IMG/VR virus record: IMGVR_UViG_3300020378_000034
Location: 1-28,435 of that record
Direction: 5' to 3' (one strand)
DNA length: 28,435 nucleotides
From: a virus
In this document: piece after piece, positions 1 to 23,788 of the stretch
How positions within the stretch are numbered: the first letter of the stretch is position 1
Layout: the number at the start of each line of letters is the position of its first letter
Position numbers and translations under genes: made by a program
Notes under the pieces: generated by a model
Told to the model about the DNA's origin: nothing
What the model saw: the letters and a program-made list of their open reading frames with translations, nothing else
The model's database searches: none

Positions 1-128
1 GCTTTCTTAGCCTCTTCTTGCATTTCCTTGATTTTGTCTTCCTGTTCGTCCAACTGCTCAAGGAGAGCCATATATTTTTCTAAATCAATTTCGACTTCGT
101 TTCTACTGTTATCTTTTTCTTCAGCCAT
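1..128 (-). CDS. N-terminus of an acidic coiled-coil protein, cut by the window edge
   Basis: Only the first 42 codons are inside the window; the gene runs off the left edge. It starts MAEEKDNSRNEVEIDLEKY and is very rich in Glu, Asp, Lys and Gln with heptad-like leucines, so it probably forms a helix or coiled coil. A good Shine-Dalgarno (AAGGA) lies about 6 bases before the ATG. It is the next gene downstream of gp26/gp51. In many tailed phages the gene after the tail assembly chaperones encodes the tape measure, so the start of a tape-measure or other tail protein is possible. That is a positional guess only. Confidence 0.6.
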   Translation of the reverse strand, partial: MAEEKDNSRNEVEIDLEKYMALLEQLDEQEDKIKEMQEEAKK

Positions 129-180: not shown

Positions 181-315
181 CTACATACTGTTATTTCTCT
201 GTTTTTGTCTTGCCTTTTCTTCCTCTAAATGGTTAAGCAATAAACCAATATAAATCTCTCTTTCCCAAGGCATCATATCCTCAATTTCAGTCAATGAGTA
301 CTTGTGATGTTGCAT
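181..315 (-). CDS. 51: gp51-like baseplate hub / tail assembly factor (small; likely made by frameshift from gp26)
   Basis: This open frame ends in TAG at 181-183. From the only in-frame ATG after the gp26 stop (313-315) it encodes 44 residues beginning MQHHKYSLTEIEDMMPWERE. The pattern of His-rich start, SLTEIE, MPWERE(I/V)Y and a charged helical tail matches what I know of gp51 of T4-like marine phages, an assembly factor for the baseplate hub. That ATG has no Shine-Dalgarno, and the same frame is open upstream through 372, past the end of gp26, adding about 19 residues. This suggests the protein is made mainly as a -1 extension of gp26. The gp51 assignment is from recognition of a short sequence, so moderate. 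Confidence 0.6.
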   Translation of the reverse strand: MQHHKYSLTEIEDMMPWEREIYIGLLLNHLEEEKARQKQRNNSM

Positions 316-368
316 TAACTGAAAATTGGTTTGGTAATAATTAACCAAATTTTCATGAGAAAGAGCTA

Positions 369-1070
369 CTAAAAAAAATTTTGTAATCCTTTTAGTATTG
401 ATTCGTTCTCAGTACCACAACTGTCACATTTATATTCTACTACTTTTTGAATAGTAGGCATACTTTCAAAGAACCTATTGATTTTATCAACTTGTTCTAA
501 AGTTAAACTTTCAACAAATTCAGTTAACTCACTGTCTTGAATATCGTTTGTATCATATACAGTTTCTTCATCAAAGATAGTGTGAATACCATGTTTAATT
601 AGAAATAAAAATCTATCACCTGAGTCTTCCATATCATCTGCTTTAGCAAGATTTTCTGAATCAGGATAACGTAATGTTACACCTAGTGTATCGGTTAACT
701 GAATTGTGTTTTCTATTTTTCCTTCAGGATAATGTAGTTCAACCTCTTCTATATTAACTGGTACTTTAGTGACTCCATCACAACTTTTACATTTAAACAT
801 CATATCTGACGTTTCACCAACTGATTTAGCTCTAGCTTTTAAAAACAAATATTCCAAATCAAACATTGGTAATTTGAAAGCATTAACTTTTTCTTCAGTA
901 ATACTTGTTATCAAGTTTCTAATAGCTAAAAGAACTTCTTCAGCACTCTTTCCTTCTTTCGCAAGTAACAAGTATTTTTGTTCCTTGACTAGAAATGGTC
1001 GGAATGTTACTTCCGTTCCATCACTAAGTTTGCACTTATGTTTAGGTGCTTTTTGGATTGGTAATCCCAT
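369..1070 (-). CDS. 26: T4 gp26-like baseplate hub subunit / tail assembly protein
   Basis: 233 residues. The N-terminus (GLPIQKAPKHKCKLSDGTEV) and overall pattern match the gp26 family of T4-like phages, annotated as baseplate hub subunit. Two CxxC pairs (Cys94/Cys97 and Cys215/Cys218) suggest a zinc-ribbon-like element that joins the middle and C-terminal parts. The start has a good Shine-Dalgarno (GGAG, 7 bases before ATG). It sits between a tube-initiator-like gene and gp51, close to the T4 order 26-51. It ends on a T-run that looks like a -1 slippery site, so a longer gp26-gp51 fusion is likely. Length is near T4 gp26 (about 208 aa). Confidence 0.75.
   Translation of the reverse strand: MGLPIQKAPKHKCKLSDGTEVTFRPFLVKEQKYLLLAKEGKSAEEVLLAIRNLITSITEEKVNAFKLPMFDLEYLFLKARAKSVGETSDMMFKCKSCDGVTKVPVNIEEVELHYPEGKIENTIQLTDTLGVTLRYPDSENLAKADDMEDSGDRFLFLIKHGIHTIFDEETVYDTNDIQDSELTEFVESLTLEQVDKINRFFESMPTIQKVVEYKCDSCGTENESILKGLQNFF
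372..378 (-). other. Predicted -1 ribosomal frameshift site (T TTT TTT) at the end of gp26
   Basis: On the minus strand gp26 ends CAA AAT TTT TTT TAG. The eight-T run contains the heptamer T_TTT_TTT placed exactly in the gp26 reading frame and followed at once by the stop codon. Slipping back one base continues as TTA GTA GCT CTT TCT CAT GAA and stays open to the gp51 stop at 181. A weak hairpin (TTGGT / ACCAA, 331-335 with 344-348) lies about 25 bases downstream. The slippery sequence and open -1 frame are seen directly. Use in vivo is inference, by analogy with the frameshifted tail assembly chaperones of lambda and P2. Confidence 0.55.
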
Positions 1071-1089
1071 AATTTACTCCATATTGTAA

Positions 1090-1956
1090 TTAACCAAAAA
1101 GATTTCTAATCTCTGTGGCTCTGTTATCAAGGTTTGTTAATCTGTCTCGAAGTTTTCCTTCTTTACCAAACCTACTTAATAGATTACTACCACCAAGTAG
1201 TGCATCTAATAAACCTCTTCCTTTATTTAGAAGACTTCTTTTAGGTGCTGGGATATATTTTGATTCCCAATACCTGTATGCGAGGGTACAAGAAAACCTC
1301 ATTATACCATTTGCATCCTGAGATAATCCCATTTCACTAAAACTAACTGGATACGCTTCATGCAACGTGTACTCTAATGCATTTCTTTTTGTATCTTCTG
1401 AATCTTTTCTATCAGTTCTATGTTGTATTATTTGAACTCGACCAATATAATCTTTATAAAATGCCATTTGAGGCATAAAATTAGTTCCCTTGATACTTCC
1501 ATCTATTGCATCTTGAGCCTCAGCAGCATCTGTAGCTTCTTGAGCAGGAACTGCCTGTTTATTATTTCCTGCTGTAAATATTACTTGTTGCCATGCTTCT
1601 ATAATTAATCTATCTGCAAAACTTTGGTCACATATAAAGGTAAAGTCTATTGTTCCACCATCGTTAACTGTTCCGTCAGGCATTTGTCTTTCCATTCCCT
1701 GTTCAGACCAACCTGTAGTTCCTATACTTCTTCCAGGCAGTGAACAGGATTCTACTCTTAGACCCATAACCCTTCCTGGCGAGGTAACCATTTCATCTAC
1801 AGCTTTATATGACTCACCTGTAGTTTCGTCTGTTTTTGCTTCTATGGTTTGTTTTGTTTTACCAAAGTATGCACCAGGCAAAAAGAAATTAACGTCAAAC
1901 CTGTTTCCTCTCGCACCTGAGTCAAAATTATATTTTAATTCGTCTATACTACTCAT
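1090..1956 (-). CDS. Baseplate tail-tube initiator/cap protein, gp54/gp48-like
   Basis: 288 residues. The central part has features of the T4 tail-tube fold family: a VESCSLPGRSIGTTGWSEQG segment near residues 68-88, a 'GTIDFTFICDQSFADRLIIE' strand/helix segment, and a C-terminal segment 'EAYPVSFSEMGLSQDANGIM' followed by an aromatic YRYWES strand, like the end of gp19/gp54 proteins. The protein would lie between baseplate and tube and nucleate tube assembly. The start overlaps the stop of the upstream gene by 4 bases (ATGA), so the two are coupled. I cannot tell gp48 from gp54 by eye. T4 gp54 is 320 and gp48 364 residues; this one is shorter than both. Confidence 0.6.
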   Translation of the reverse strand: MSSIDELKYNFDSGARGNRFDVNFFLPGAYFGKTKQTIEAKTDETTGESYKAVDEMVTSPGRVMGLRVESCSLPGRSIGTTGWSEQGMERQMPDGTVNDGGTIDFTFICDQSFADRLIIEAWQQVIFTAGNNKQAVPAQEATDAAEAQDAIDGSIKGTNFMPQMAFYKDYIGRVQIIQHRTDRKDSEDTKRNALEYTLHEAYPVSFSEMGLSQDANGIMRFSCTLAYRYWESKYIPAPKRSLLNKGRGLLDALLGGSNLLSRFGKEGKLRDRLTNLDNRATEIRNLFG

Positions 1957-2533: not shown

Positions 2534-2965
2534 CTAAGTTAGATGTTCTTCGGTTAATATCCTAAAATTATATTTTCTATTTTTACAGTATTCTTCTGCA
2601 GCTTTGAATTTTGCTTGATTTACTCCGTAGGTTGCAACCTCTCTTAGATACTTTTGAGTTTGTCTTTTGGGTTTCTTGGGTGGTTGACATTGTCGTTTAG
2701 GTTTAACTTCAATGATTTCATGTCTGACCTTACCTGATACGTTTCTTACTTTGATATAGAAGTCAGGGAAGTATCGGTGTATTTTATTGTCTAAAGGGGA
2801 AACGTATGGGATAATAATCTCTTCACTATTCCATTCTAGAATAGAAGGTGTAGTGTCACAATAATGCATAAACCTACGTTCCCATAGAGAACGATAGAAG
2901 ACCTTAGTGGGGTCTCCTTTATACTTCTTACTGTTTTTTGGACGGAATCTACCTTTGTACGACAT
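2534..2965 (-). CDS. 4: T4 gp4 (gp50)-like head completion protein with nuclease fold
   Basis: 143 residues, close to T4 gp4 (about 150). The start (MSYKGRFRPKNSKKYKGDPT) and 'YRSLWERRFMHYCDTTPSIL' followed by EWNSEE match the gp4 head-completion family, which joins the packaged capsid to the tail. The order HRYFPDFYI (Asp68) ... IIEVKPK (Glu86, Lys88) is a PD-(D/E)XK nuclease core, as noted for this family. It is followed by the gp53-position gene as in T4 (2-4-53-5). A late box (AATAAATA, 2971-2978) ends 5 bases before its ATG and there is no Shine-Dalgarno. Confidence 0.85.
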   Translation of the reverse strand: MSYKGRFRPKNSKKYKGDPTKVFYRSLWERRFMHYCDTTPSILEWNSEEIIIPYVSPLDNKIHRYFPDFYIKVRNVSGKVRHEIIEVKPKRQCQPPKKPKRQTQKYLREVATYGVNQAKFKAAEEYCKNRKYNFRILTEEHLT

Positions 2966-2978: not shown

Positions 2979-3174
2979 ACTCTTTTTCATATCCTTTTTT
3001 CCTGTCGTATTTGGTTTTGTCTTTATGAACTTTGGTAAGTCCATGTCTAGGGGTTTTCTTATGTTCTTTTATTTTAGGCTGAGGTTTACCGAAGATGCGT
3101 TCCCACTCATCTGCATATTTGTCTTCGTTTGAGTTCCGTCTCCGTGAACCCTTTCCACCGTGCCATTGTGTCAT
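2977..3174 (-). CDS. Small basic conserved phage protein (MTQWHGGKGSRRR...)
   Basis: 65 residues, very rich in Lys and Arg. The N-terminus MTQWHGGKGSRRR resembles small proteins next to gp4 in other marine T4-like phages; I know no function. A middle segment 'DKYADEWERIFGKPQPKIKE' could be a short helix. It starts 3 bases after the S21 gene stops and ends just before gp4, so it is probably co-transcribed with both. Its charge suggests nucleic acid or ribosome contact, but nothing in the sequence proves this. Confidence 0.7.
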   Translation of the reverse strand: MTQWHGGKGSRRRNSNEDKYADEWERIFGKPQPKIKEHKKTPRHGLTKVHKDKTKYDRKKGYEKE

Positions 3175-3177
3175 AAT

Positions 3178-3417
3178 TTATATCCATCGTTTTGGACGAC
3201 CTTGATTTTCTCTTTTGATTGCATCAAGTTTATTTCTTCGTGTTTGTTGTTGGTTCTTCTTATGTTTCTTTTCGTTAGGTTTAATATAGTATTGTCTATC
3301 TCTAACTTCCTGAACAATACCTGCGTTGTCACATTGTTTTTTAAATCGTCTAAGCATTTGGTCAAACGATTCTGTCTGTTTCTTTTTATGATTAAATCTT
3401 GGTGTTACACTAGGCAT
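3178..3417 (-). CDS. rpsU: Phage-encoded 30S ribosomal protein S21 homologue
   Basis: 79 residues. The core 'SFDQMLRRFKKQCDNAGIVQ' followed by EVRDRQYYIKP is the bacterial S21 signature (compare the host-type pattern FDxALRRFKRxCEKAGxxxExRRREFYEKP), followed by the usual Lys/Arg-rich tail ending RPKRWI. S21 sits on the 30S platform near the anti-Shine-Dalgarno region and is easily exchanged. S21 genes are known in some marine phages, where they are thought to compete for incorporation into host ribosomes. The start codon overlaps the stop of the upstream methyltransferase (…GCATAATG). It is the reading frame with family similarity; another open frame across 3171-3365 is a shadow. Confidence 0.9.
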   Translation of the reverse strand: MPSVTPRFNHKKKQTESFDQMLRRFKKQCDNAGIVQEVRDRQYYIKPNEKKHKKNQQQTRRNKLDAIKRENQGRPKRWI

Positions 3418-21458: not shown

Positions 21459-22003
21459 TCCCTATATTTTTTTGATAAGTCGTTTGAAGAACTAGGGTCA
21501 TACTTTTTAACTTCAGATGGTTTAGGTTTAATCGTGATTGCATCGTCAAGGTGATGACTTATATCTATACCACCAAAATTTAATGTTTGTTCTTCTTCAC
21601 CTTCTGTCCATGGATTATTATATTCGTGGAAGAATCTAAAATTCATTTTAGGTTCCCAAACTTCTGCAGGGTCTTCATAAATCTCTTTAGGAAAATCAAG
21701 TGACTCACCACAACCACAAACGTCTTTGGTTTTACTATTATTAAATTGTATTTTCTGACCAATCCCTTCGTCAACTTCTATTAAGTCTATCTCACATTGG
21801 TCTAGATATTTTTTATCGTATTTTGAAATTAGAATAATGTACTTTCCATTTACTCTTATCTGATAATCTGTTTTTGCTGGTTCTCCCTTCTCCCAAATAT
21901 ATTCATAACCTGCACAACCTTTATTTGGTCTAACACCAAAACGAATCGTGTCAATTCCTGACTCTGCAATAAATTTATCAGCCTTCGGCGTTATGGTTAA
22001 CAT
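21446..22003 (-). CDS. IscA/HesB-type Fe-S carrier with extra C-terminal tail
   Basis: 185 residues. Residues 1-105 are the A-type carrier domain: FGVRPNKGCAGYEYIW with Cys30, 'IDLIEVDEGIGQKIQFNNSK' and DVCGCGESL with Cys96 and Cys98, the three cluster ligands of IscA/ErpA/HesB. These proteins hold and pass Fe-S clusters. HesB-like genes are known in marine T4-like phages. The last 80 residues ('EVWEPKMNFRFFHEYNNPWT' and the rest) are an addition not found in host IscA (about 107 aa). A radical SAM enzyme in the same window needs Fe-S clusters, so the two may be linked. Confidence 0.85.
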   Translation of the reverse strand: MLTITPKADKFIAESGIDTIRFGVRPNKGCAGYEYIWEKGEPAKTDYQIRVNGKYIILISKYDKKYLDQCEIDLIEVDEGIGQKIQFNNSKTKDVCGCGESLDFPKEIYEDPAEVWEPKMNFRFFHEYNNPWTEGEEEQTLNFGGIDISHHLDDAITIKPKPSEVKKYDPSSSNDLSKKYRDWRK

Positions 22004-22598
22004 TTACGTCCTCTAATTTTTTAATTTTAAATAGATATTCAGGTATATGTATATTTTGGTCTTCAGGAACATACAACCAATTTATTTCTGAACGATTACA
22101 AGTGTCGATTGCATCTTCGATTGTCTCGACTAGTGCTTCTCCACCCAAATTAAATGAAGTGTTAAAAATCATGGGTACACCTGTTCGGTCATAGAAACCT
22201 TTAATTAAATTATAATAGTTTTTATTCTGTTCTTCGGTAACAGTCTGAATACGACACGTTCCGTCTGAATGAACCAGTGTAGGAATCTTTTCGTACGCAA
22301 TATCTTTTGCCTGTATTGCAAAACTCATCCATGGTGATTCTTCTAACTGCAACATATGAAACCAATCATGTGCGTGTTCTTTTAAACAGGTTCCTGCAAA
22401 TGGTCGATAGTGTTCTCTCTTCTTTACGTTGTTGACAATTTGTTTTGCTTCTTTATGTCTTGGGTCAAATAATATTGAACGGTTTCCTAATGCTCTCGGC
22501 CCCCACTCTCCTTTACCCTGAAAGATTGCAACAATTTGTTCTTCGTCAATCAGTAAGTCTAAACACTCGTCTAAGTCTCGTACTATTCTTGTAATCAT
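21978..22598 (-). CDS. Carbamoyltransferase, C-terminal (NodU/CmcH-type) half as a separate gene
   Basis: 206 residues. GKGEWGPRALGNRSILFDPR is the hallmark of the carbamoyltransferase C-terminal domain, followed by REHYRPFAGTCLKEHA, HSDGTCRIQTVTEEQN and GVPMIFNTSFNLGGEALVET. In NodU, CmcH and TobZ this YrdC-like domain makes and passes the carbamoyl-adenylate. Here it is encoded apart from the N-terminal domain; its ATG overlaps that gene's stop as ATGA. Together they have 603 residues, the normal size of the one-piece enzyme, and no motif is missing, so this looks like a working split rather than decay. Confidence 0.85.
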   Translation of the reverse strand: MITRIVRDLDECLDLLIDEEQIVAIFQGKGEWGPRALGNRSILFDPRHKEAKQIVNNVKKREHYRPFAGTCLKEHAHDWFHMLQLEESPWMSFAIQAKDIAYEKIPTLVHSDGTCRIQTVTEEQNKNYYNLIKGFYDRTGVPMIFNTSFNLGGEALVETIEDAIDTCNRSEINWLYVPEDQNIHIPEYLFKIKKLEDVNVNHNAEG

Positions 22599-23788
22599 GA
22601 TTCACTCCATACACTAGGTTTACAATATGCAGGTTCTATTCCGTCAACCATTTGTTGATACATTTGTAGTGCAGCTCCAGCTGCAGTTCCACCGTCATGT
22701 GGAATCGGGTCAACAAATATTTGGTGATTCGGAAATCTTTGCAAGTACTTATAATTGTTTGTACAGTTCAATGCATATCCACCTGATAAAATAATATTCT
22801 TACAGTCGGGATTATAATCGATTGCCTTTTTAATGAGTTCCACCGTGTAATCATATGCGACCAGTTCTAATTCATGTGCAATATTAAATCGATTGAACAC
22901 TTGGGGTTGGTGGTGACCGTAACTTGCCATACCCATGACCTTACCAGCAGCACGACCCAACTTATCTGTTCCCAGTGCGTGAGAAGCATTACTGAAGTTC
23001 ATACCCATAGAAGGCCAACTGGTCAATTCATAATCGACTCCGTCAAGTGTTACTTTATCATTCAGTGGACACTCCAAGAATGAACTCAACTCATTTGGAA
23101 ACTGTTCTGAAATATCATGAATAAATCTGAGGTTCGAAAGTTTCTGATACTGAGGTTCAATATGCATTCCGTCTTCGTCTTTGTATCCATAGTAGATACT
23201 TTCGATTTCTTGGTGCGTAGGATACATATCCCACAACTTACGACACCCACCACCGTCCATGACAATAATAATTGCATTGTCCATATGAGGTGCAAGATTC
23301 AATCCACAATACGCATGGTGAATATGGTGGTCAACATTATACTGATACTCACCTCTAGGTAAACCTAACTGTTCGGTGATAATGTCGTCCATAATCGTTT
23401 CGTCCCCTGAATTAGGACAAAAGACAAAATTAAACTCTTCCCATTTCTCTGCAAGGTTTTCTAACTTCTCTCTTGTTAATTGTCTATGTGAGAAGTCCTC
23501 TTTGAACTCACGAGTACGAATTCGGTCTTGGGTCAATTCTTTATCGACATTGTAAGTGTAGTCCCGTCTATCGAAACTTGCAAACACCACTTCGTCTATT
23601 GCATCGACATTGATTTTCTGTTCAATGGATTGGAGTAGGGTTTGTTCGGTTTCTTTGGGTGACCAATACTTTTTACGTCTGCAACGTTCTTCTTCAAACA
23701 CGTCTACGAGTACACCGTTTTTAACGACTGCAATAGATGTGTCATGCGAGATATTCACACCAAGAATGGTGTTATTGAGTTTACTCAT
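22595..23788 (-). CDS. Carbamoyltransferase, N-terminal (Kae1-like) half as a separate gene
   Basis: 397 residues. ILGVNISHDTSIAVVKNGVL starts the actin/Kae1-like fold, FEEERCRRKKYWSPKETE follows, and VDHHIHHAYCGLNLAPH (His154, His155, His158) is the metal-binding HHxxH-type motif. IIIVMDGGG and 'KNIILSGGYALNCTNNYKYL' bind nucleotide; VDPIPHDGGTAAGAAL is the usual last motif. This domain moves the carbamoyl group to a hydroxyl of a sugar, antibiotic or nucleoside. The real acceptor is unknown; modified phage bases or cell-surface sugars are possible. It has its own ribosome site (AGGA). Confidence 0.85.
   Translation of the reverse strand: MSKLNNTILGVNISHDTSIAVVKNGVLVDVFEEERCRRKKYWSPKETEQTLLQSIEQKINVDAIDEVVFASFDRRDYTYNVDKELTQDRIRTREFKEDFSHRQLTREKLENLAEKWEEFNFVFCPNSGDETIMDDIITEQLGLPRGEYQYNVDHHIHHAYCGLNLAPHMDNAIIIVMDGGGCRKLWDMYPTHQEIESIYYGYKDEDGMHIEPQYQKLSNLRFIHDISEQFPNELSSFLECPLNDKVTLDGVDYELTSWPSMGMNFSNASHALGTDKLGRAAGKVMGMASYGHHQPQVFNRFNIAHELELVAYDYTVELIKKAIDYNPDCKNIILSGGYALNCTNNYKYLQRFPNHQIFVDPIPHDGGTAAGAALQMYQQMVDGIEPAYCKPSVWSES

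Follow-up and report, generated by a model that had tools for sequence, protein, structure and literature searches.

In this work we describe a probable tail assembly chaperone gene of a marine T4-like virus from an uncultivated lineage. The gene is read on the minus strand, close to position 1 of a 28,435-nt stretch of DNA (IMG/VR record IMGVR_UViG_3300020378_000034, positions 1 to 28,435; hereafter the window). Programmed −1 ribosomal frameshifting very probably (we put the probability at about 0.93) makes two nested predicted proteins from this single gene, gp26 alone (the short form, TAC-N) and gp26 joined to gp51 (the long form, TAC-NC). Most ribosomes would stop at the TAG at 371 and release a gp26 of 233 amino acids (AA), and a fraction of them would slip one base back on U_UUU_UUU and continue to the end of a gp26–gp51 fusion of about 296 AA. 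Slippage is probably aided by an internal Shine–Dalgarno (SD)-like sequence 8 nt upstream of the slip site and by a long-range mRNA stem that starts 6 nt downstream of it.

The gp26 gene, its −1 extension and its neighbours

The gp26 ORF (1070..369, minus strand) runs from ATG to TAG over 233 codons and is preceded by a GGAG ribosome site (1077..1080, minus strand) 6 nt 5′ of the ATG. It matches Pfam family PF12322 (T4_baseplate) over residues 9–233 with 200 bits, for a curated cut-off of 24.5, and phrog_150 with an E-value of 3e-59, and corresponds to the N domain of the chaperone. Its 3′ end reads CAA AAT TTT TTT TAG. The T8 run (378..371, minus strand) contains an in-frame T_TTT_TTT slippery heptamer (372..378, minus strand) that abuts the 0-frame TAG (369..371, minus strand), as the preliminary description of this DNA had read it. 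The −1 frame extension (TAC-C, or 'gp51'; 181..372, minus strand) consists of 63 codons (372..184) and a TAG stop (183..181); the same description was right that this frame is open to the gp51 stop, and its count of 64 codons is to be corrected to 63. The extension encodes LVALSHEN...RNNSM. The fusion would read ...LQNFF-LVALSHENLVNYY..., with LQNFFLVALSHENLVNYY... as the predicted junction peptide, and a −1 shift at the heptamer gives exactly the passage from LQNFF to LVALSHEN that had been proposed. The extension matches phrog_634, 'baseplate hub assembly catalyst' (E 1e-28), and also positions 236–277 of phrog_150, which suggests that some members of phrog_150 carry both parts in one chain.

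The neighbour upstream of gp26 encodes a tail-tube-like protein (1090..1956, minus strand; phrog_45, E 8e-25). Downstream, only the start of the next gene is present (1..128, ATG at 128..126, minus strand), as the end of the window cuts it, and the tape measure gene itself lies beyond that end. In relatives (loci L002–L005 and others) the gp51 extension is followed by an ORF of about 126 AA and then by an ORF of 700–780 AA, which is likely to be the tape measure gene. The long ORF of L005 matches the tape measure family phrog_58 (E 1e-5), and the gene order is identical in phage phiM12, where a tape-measure-like gene is annotated. The gp26–gp51 gene is thus placed between a tail-tube-like gene and a tape-measure region, the latter seen in relatives.

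A structural model is consistent with a chaperone. An AlphaFold2 model of gp26, built with 69 sequences (pLDDT 94.5), was compared with known structures using VIA-align, and its best match was the HK97 tail assembly chaperone (2ob9), with a Z of 6.8 and an rmsd of 4.0 over 83 of 104 residues (residues 1–89 of the gp26 model), the next match having a Z of 2.7; a Z below 8 can reflect a common arrangement. Foldseek alone returned nothing significant for this model in the PDB, and a sequence search of the PDB gave no relative of gp26. The resemblance to 2ob9 supports, as modelled evidence short of proof, a tail assembly chaperone fold for gp26. In phage lambda many copies of the short form gpG coat the tape measure protein and a few copies of the long form gpGT recruit the tail tube protein (PMC5009743). 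By analogy, gp26 and the fusion likely play the roles of gpG and gpGT, and the additional C-terminal domain of TAC-NC would be expected to form a bridge between the tape measure protein and the tail tube, as its counterpart in lambda does.

Conservation of the junction and alternatives to ribosomal slippage

Scans of IMG/VR yielded 170 loci with both gp26 and the extension, the window itself and some cultured phages being counted among them; 150 of them, below 90% nucleotide identity, form the nonredundant set. The extension lies in the −1 frame in all 170 loci, and an in-frame T_TTT_TTN heptamer (TTTTTTN) is found near the gp26 stop in 169; such a heptamer occurs in only 5 of the 813 other ORFs (at least 150 AA long) of these loci, confirming that the slippery run at the end of gp26 occurs far beyond chance. 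The nonredundant loci carry TTTTTTC (77), TTTTTTT (62) or TTTTTTA (11), and the stop codon is 0 or 1 codon 3′ of the heptamer in 142 of the 150. The one exception, L120, has GTT TTC instead, in which a T_TTC tetramer remains available. In a hold-out of 82 contigs, sampled independently by means of the Syn33 and nt-1 proteins, 81 of 81 scorable loci had TTTTTTC one codon before the stop and a −1 extension. The same layout is present in the cultured phages Syn33, S-CAM1, Sf-FR1, Melnitz, phiM12, Cronobacter S13, Vibrio EniLVp02 and nt-1, and Rhizobium IC12. Alignment of the junctions of relatives had been suggested as a check of the frameshift, and its outcome bears the proposal out. In two other phages, Ackermannviridae SE14 of Salmonella (L179, near 2188) and Vibrio phage D507 (L178, near 3223), gp26 is followed by an open −1 extension and T_TTC stands in place of T6; judging from these sequences, these phages likely represent a further frameshift type.

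Three other explanations of this arrangement were considered. The first codons past the slip site bear on the reading in which gp51 would be a small protein of its own, with translation beginning at the internal ATG (313..315, minus strand), where 'gp51' is usually annotated to start in relatives. Over the first 18 of them the −1 frame is open in all 150 nonredundant loci, whereas a stop occurs in the 0 frame in 150 of 150 and in the +1 frame in 147. Before the internal ATG, variability is highest at the third positions of the −1 frame (0.57, versus 0.38 and 0.28), and therefore the approximately 19 codons that precede this ATG are translated in the −1 frame. Upstream of the slip, a −1-frame ATG occurs in only 4 of the 150 loci. 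Database annotations of Syn33 and Melnitz do place the start of gp51 at the internal ATG, which is present in 75 of 84 clusters, but this ATG lacks a ribosome site (mean anti-SD energy among relatives −0.6 kcal/mol, compared with −5.2 kcal/mol for gp26 starts), the codons upstream of it are conserved as protein, and in T4 gp51 the same segment is part of a longer chain whose N-terminal domain resembles gp26. The 63-codon extension has no start or ribosome site of its own, and in this it differs from a stand-alone gp51 such as that of T4. A separate gp51 is therefore very unlikely. The preliminary description rightly saw no SD sequence at the ATG at 315, but this is not the only later ATG, as it had stated, since further ATG codons lie downstream.

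That RNA polymerase inserts an extra base by slipping on the T8 run, so that a mixture of mRNAs would encode both proteins, is hardly more probable, in spite of the T8 present in the window and in many relatives and of the known slippage of the bacterial enzyme on runs of 9 A or T (PMC5009743). Only TTTTTTC is available in 77 of the nonredundant loci and in the entire hold-out, and the upstream SD-like sequence and the downstream stem, both under selection (see below), are signals directed to the ribosome; these observations favour ribosomal over RNA polymerase slippage, although the latter may occur at T8 in addition to the former. Least probable of all, to the point of being negligible, is an error of assembly or sequencing that hides a single gp26–gp51 ORF: homopolymers are error-prone and one extra T would fuse the two ORFs of the window, but three heptamers and three stop codons are used among the nonredundant loci, the layout recurs in cultured phages from many projects, and a fused frame was found in no locus. 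Programmed −1 frameshifting, presumably on the ribosome, is thus the reading that we retain.

RNA signals on both sides of the slip site

An SD-like element, AAAAGGA (387..393, minus strand), lies 8 nt 5′ of the heptamer in the window and is the proposed upstream stimulator. Among relatives the best anti-SD pairing is reached by 9-mers that end 7–9 nt before the first slip codon, with a mean of about −6 kcal/mol. Compared with a control in which each locus's own synonymous codons were resampled, the excess amounts to a z of −10.6 over the 150 loci and of −8.9 for 99 clusters with less than 60% amino-acid identity between them, values that, like the other z-values of the RNA-signal tests, overstate certainty somewhat, as clusters are phylogenetically dependent. 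No other position along the gene shows a peak of this kind (z about −7 at the element; the minimum elsewhere is −2.6). The glutamate before the invariant glycine is encoded by GAG and GAA in a ratio of 34:19, versus 616:1737 gene-wide (p 1e-8). These data show that the SD-like sequence, 8–10 nt upstream of the slip site, is under selection. In the hold-out, the Syn33 lineage, the signal is weak (z −2.4). Codon choice was also found to be biased at the third gp26 codon before the first slip codon, where, in relatives, leucine is encoded by CTA in 22 of 59 cases, versus 300 of 2071 gene-wide (p 2e-5).

On the downstream side, the first 90 nt of the extension are more stable than a control in which codons were permuted within the extension (mean z −1.45, se 0.15), with values of about 0 for windows further on. 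RNAalifold gave no consensus structure (0 kcal/mol) on slip-anchored alignments. A long-range stem was found by averaging base-pair probabilities and comparing them with codon-permuted controls: offsets 7–18 from the slip pair with offsets 103–114, with a core pair probability of about 0.68 versus about 0.17 in controls (84 clusters). In the window its 5′ arm (CUCUUUCUCAUG; 354..365, minus strand) starts 6 nt after the heptamer; the 3′ arm is CUUGGGAAAGAG (258..269, minus strand). In 87 of 98 clusters, versus 55 expected, a stem of 6 bp or more can form that opens 3–11 nt past the heptamer. When covariation between third codon positions was scored for 946 pairs over the 84 clusters, the top two pairs were stem partners (z 6.5 and 5.7; the next pair, 2.6); they kept the first two ranks in 98 and 97 of 100 half-samples, and the covariation of stem partners is in excess in each G+C tercile. 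A control with swapped arms forms 9.5 of 12 pairs versus 10.0 for native arms (z 9.0), only modestly fewer because protein conservation fixes many pairs, and the third-position covariation test is the stronger of the two. The stem thus shows the 5–8 nt distance from the heptamer characteristic of dnaX-type signals, with a 6-nt spacer, and its synonymous sites covary.

In the Syn33-lineage hold-out, the long-range stem of the window and its covariation are absent, though here, too, 122 nt of the region fold more strongly than expected (z −1.26, se 0.17). Other cultured phages, folded singly, have different stems near this place. From these sequences it looks as if stimulators are generally present across lineages and their form is variable. 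A pairing of upstream UACUAAAA with UUUUAGUA across the slip site is possible in the window; no general occurrence of it was seen among relatives.

The sequence around the slip site can be compared with the −1 cassettes of Escherichia coli dnaX and of IS elements, which also combine an upstream SD sequence, a heptamer and a downstream stem (PMC5009743, PMC4066793). The window differs from them by a stem that closes a loop of about 84 nt, by a U-rich heptamer, and by a shift that lengthens the product. We give even chances to the idea that frameshifting in this lineage uses a full dnaX-like cassette, composed of a selected internal SD, a U-rich heptamer and a long-range stem, the arms of which lie about 95 nt apart in codons of the extension, with other structures in other lineages. 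If this is true and undescribed, it would be the first conserved stimulator anatomy for frameshifting in phage tail chaperones. The lineage-wide pattern also provides a natural set of slip-site cassettes.

Relation to T4 gp26 and gp51 and to other tail chaperones

Compared by hhalign, the fusion matches the 249-AA T4 gp51 from one end to the other (E 4e-18, 236 columns), and this alignment includes NYYQTNFQLMQHHKYSLTEIEDMMPWERE against a 28-residue segment of T4 gp51. It also aligns with T4 gp26 (E 5e-16), the extension remaining unmatched, and the two T4 proteins align with each other (E 4e-10). Since the fusion matches T4 gp51 over its full length and T4 gp26 only up to the extension, the long form in T4 is gp51 and the short form is gp26. 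In T4 and 44RR, gp26 and gp51 come from two genes that are transcribed divergently and lack a slippery run, whereas the window has one putative frameshift gene, so that the same chaperone pair would be made in two ways, by a slip or from two genes. Cyanophage gp51 was noted to have only about 20% of the length of other gp51 proteins and to be similar to them at the C-terminus (Sullivan et al., 2010; PMC3037559). Because gp51 is the C-terminal part of the long form, it looked 80% truncated, and the missing part is gp26, to which it would be joined by the frameshift. Database records split the gp26–gp51 protein or omit part of it: in S-CAM1 (L009, 3214–3399) and Cronobacter phage S13 (L175, 3223–3387) the gp51 extension is unannotated though intact in the −1 frame.

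A study by Vladimirov, Gautam and Davidson (2022; Virology 566:9–15) reportedly identified the tail assembly chaperone genes of T4-like phages, and its abstract is said to name T4 genes 26 and 51, as separate short and long genes. According to papers that cite this work, poly-T −1 signals are known in the TAC-N genes of T4-like phages (PMC12846349), and some T4-like phages have a separate short gene and a long fused gene instead (PMC10885494). A −1 frameshift is classical in tail assembly chaperones, and a review of 2016 still excepted T4 (PMC5009743). As these citing papers present the 2022 study, the window matches the frameshift type and adds a lineage that is marine and uncultivated. A frameshift in a T4-like tail chaperone gene is thus not new in kind, and the preliminary description, which knew of no described gp26–gp51 case in these phages, has to be amended on this point. 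The dnaX-like stimulator anatomy around the slip site may be new, as far as the citing papers convey the content of that study.

The likeness to lambda G/GT and P2 E/E′ that the preliminary description had drawn holds in kind, given the conserved slippery run and −1 extension. As in lambda gpG/gpGT and P2 E/E′ (PMC5009743), a single gene that precedes the tape measure gene would give a short form and, by low-level slippage, a −1 extended form. The window differs from these systems by its U_UUU_UUN heptamer, by its SD-like and long-range stem signals, and by the ORF of about 126 AA that, from the gene order of relatives, separates gp51 from the presumed tape measure gene; the likeness is one of arrangement.

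Other genes of the window deserve mention. A carbamoyltransferase is encoded in two ORFs (22598..21978 and 23788..22595, minus strand) that overlap by 4 nt and account for an N-terminal PF02543 and a C-terminal PF16861 domain, and this pair could be a real split gene. Two small ORFs (3178..3417 and 3171..3365, minus strand) overlap in different frames. Finally, an ORF among the structural genes (2534..2965, minus strand) encodes a protein with a TnsA-like endonuclease domain (PF08722) and probably occupies the position that a gp4-like head completion gene has in relatives.
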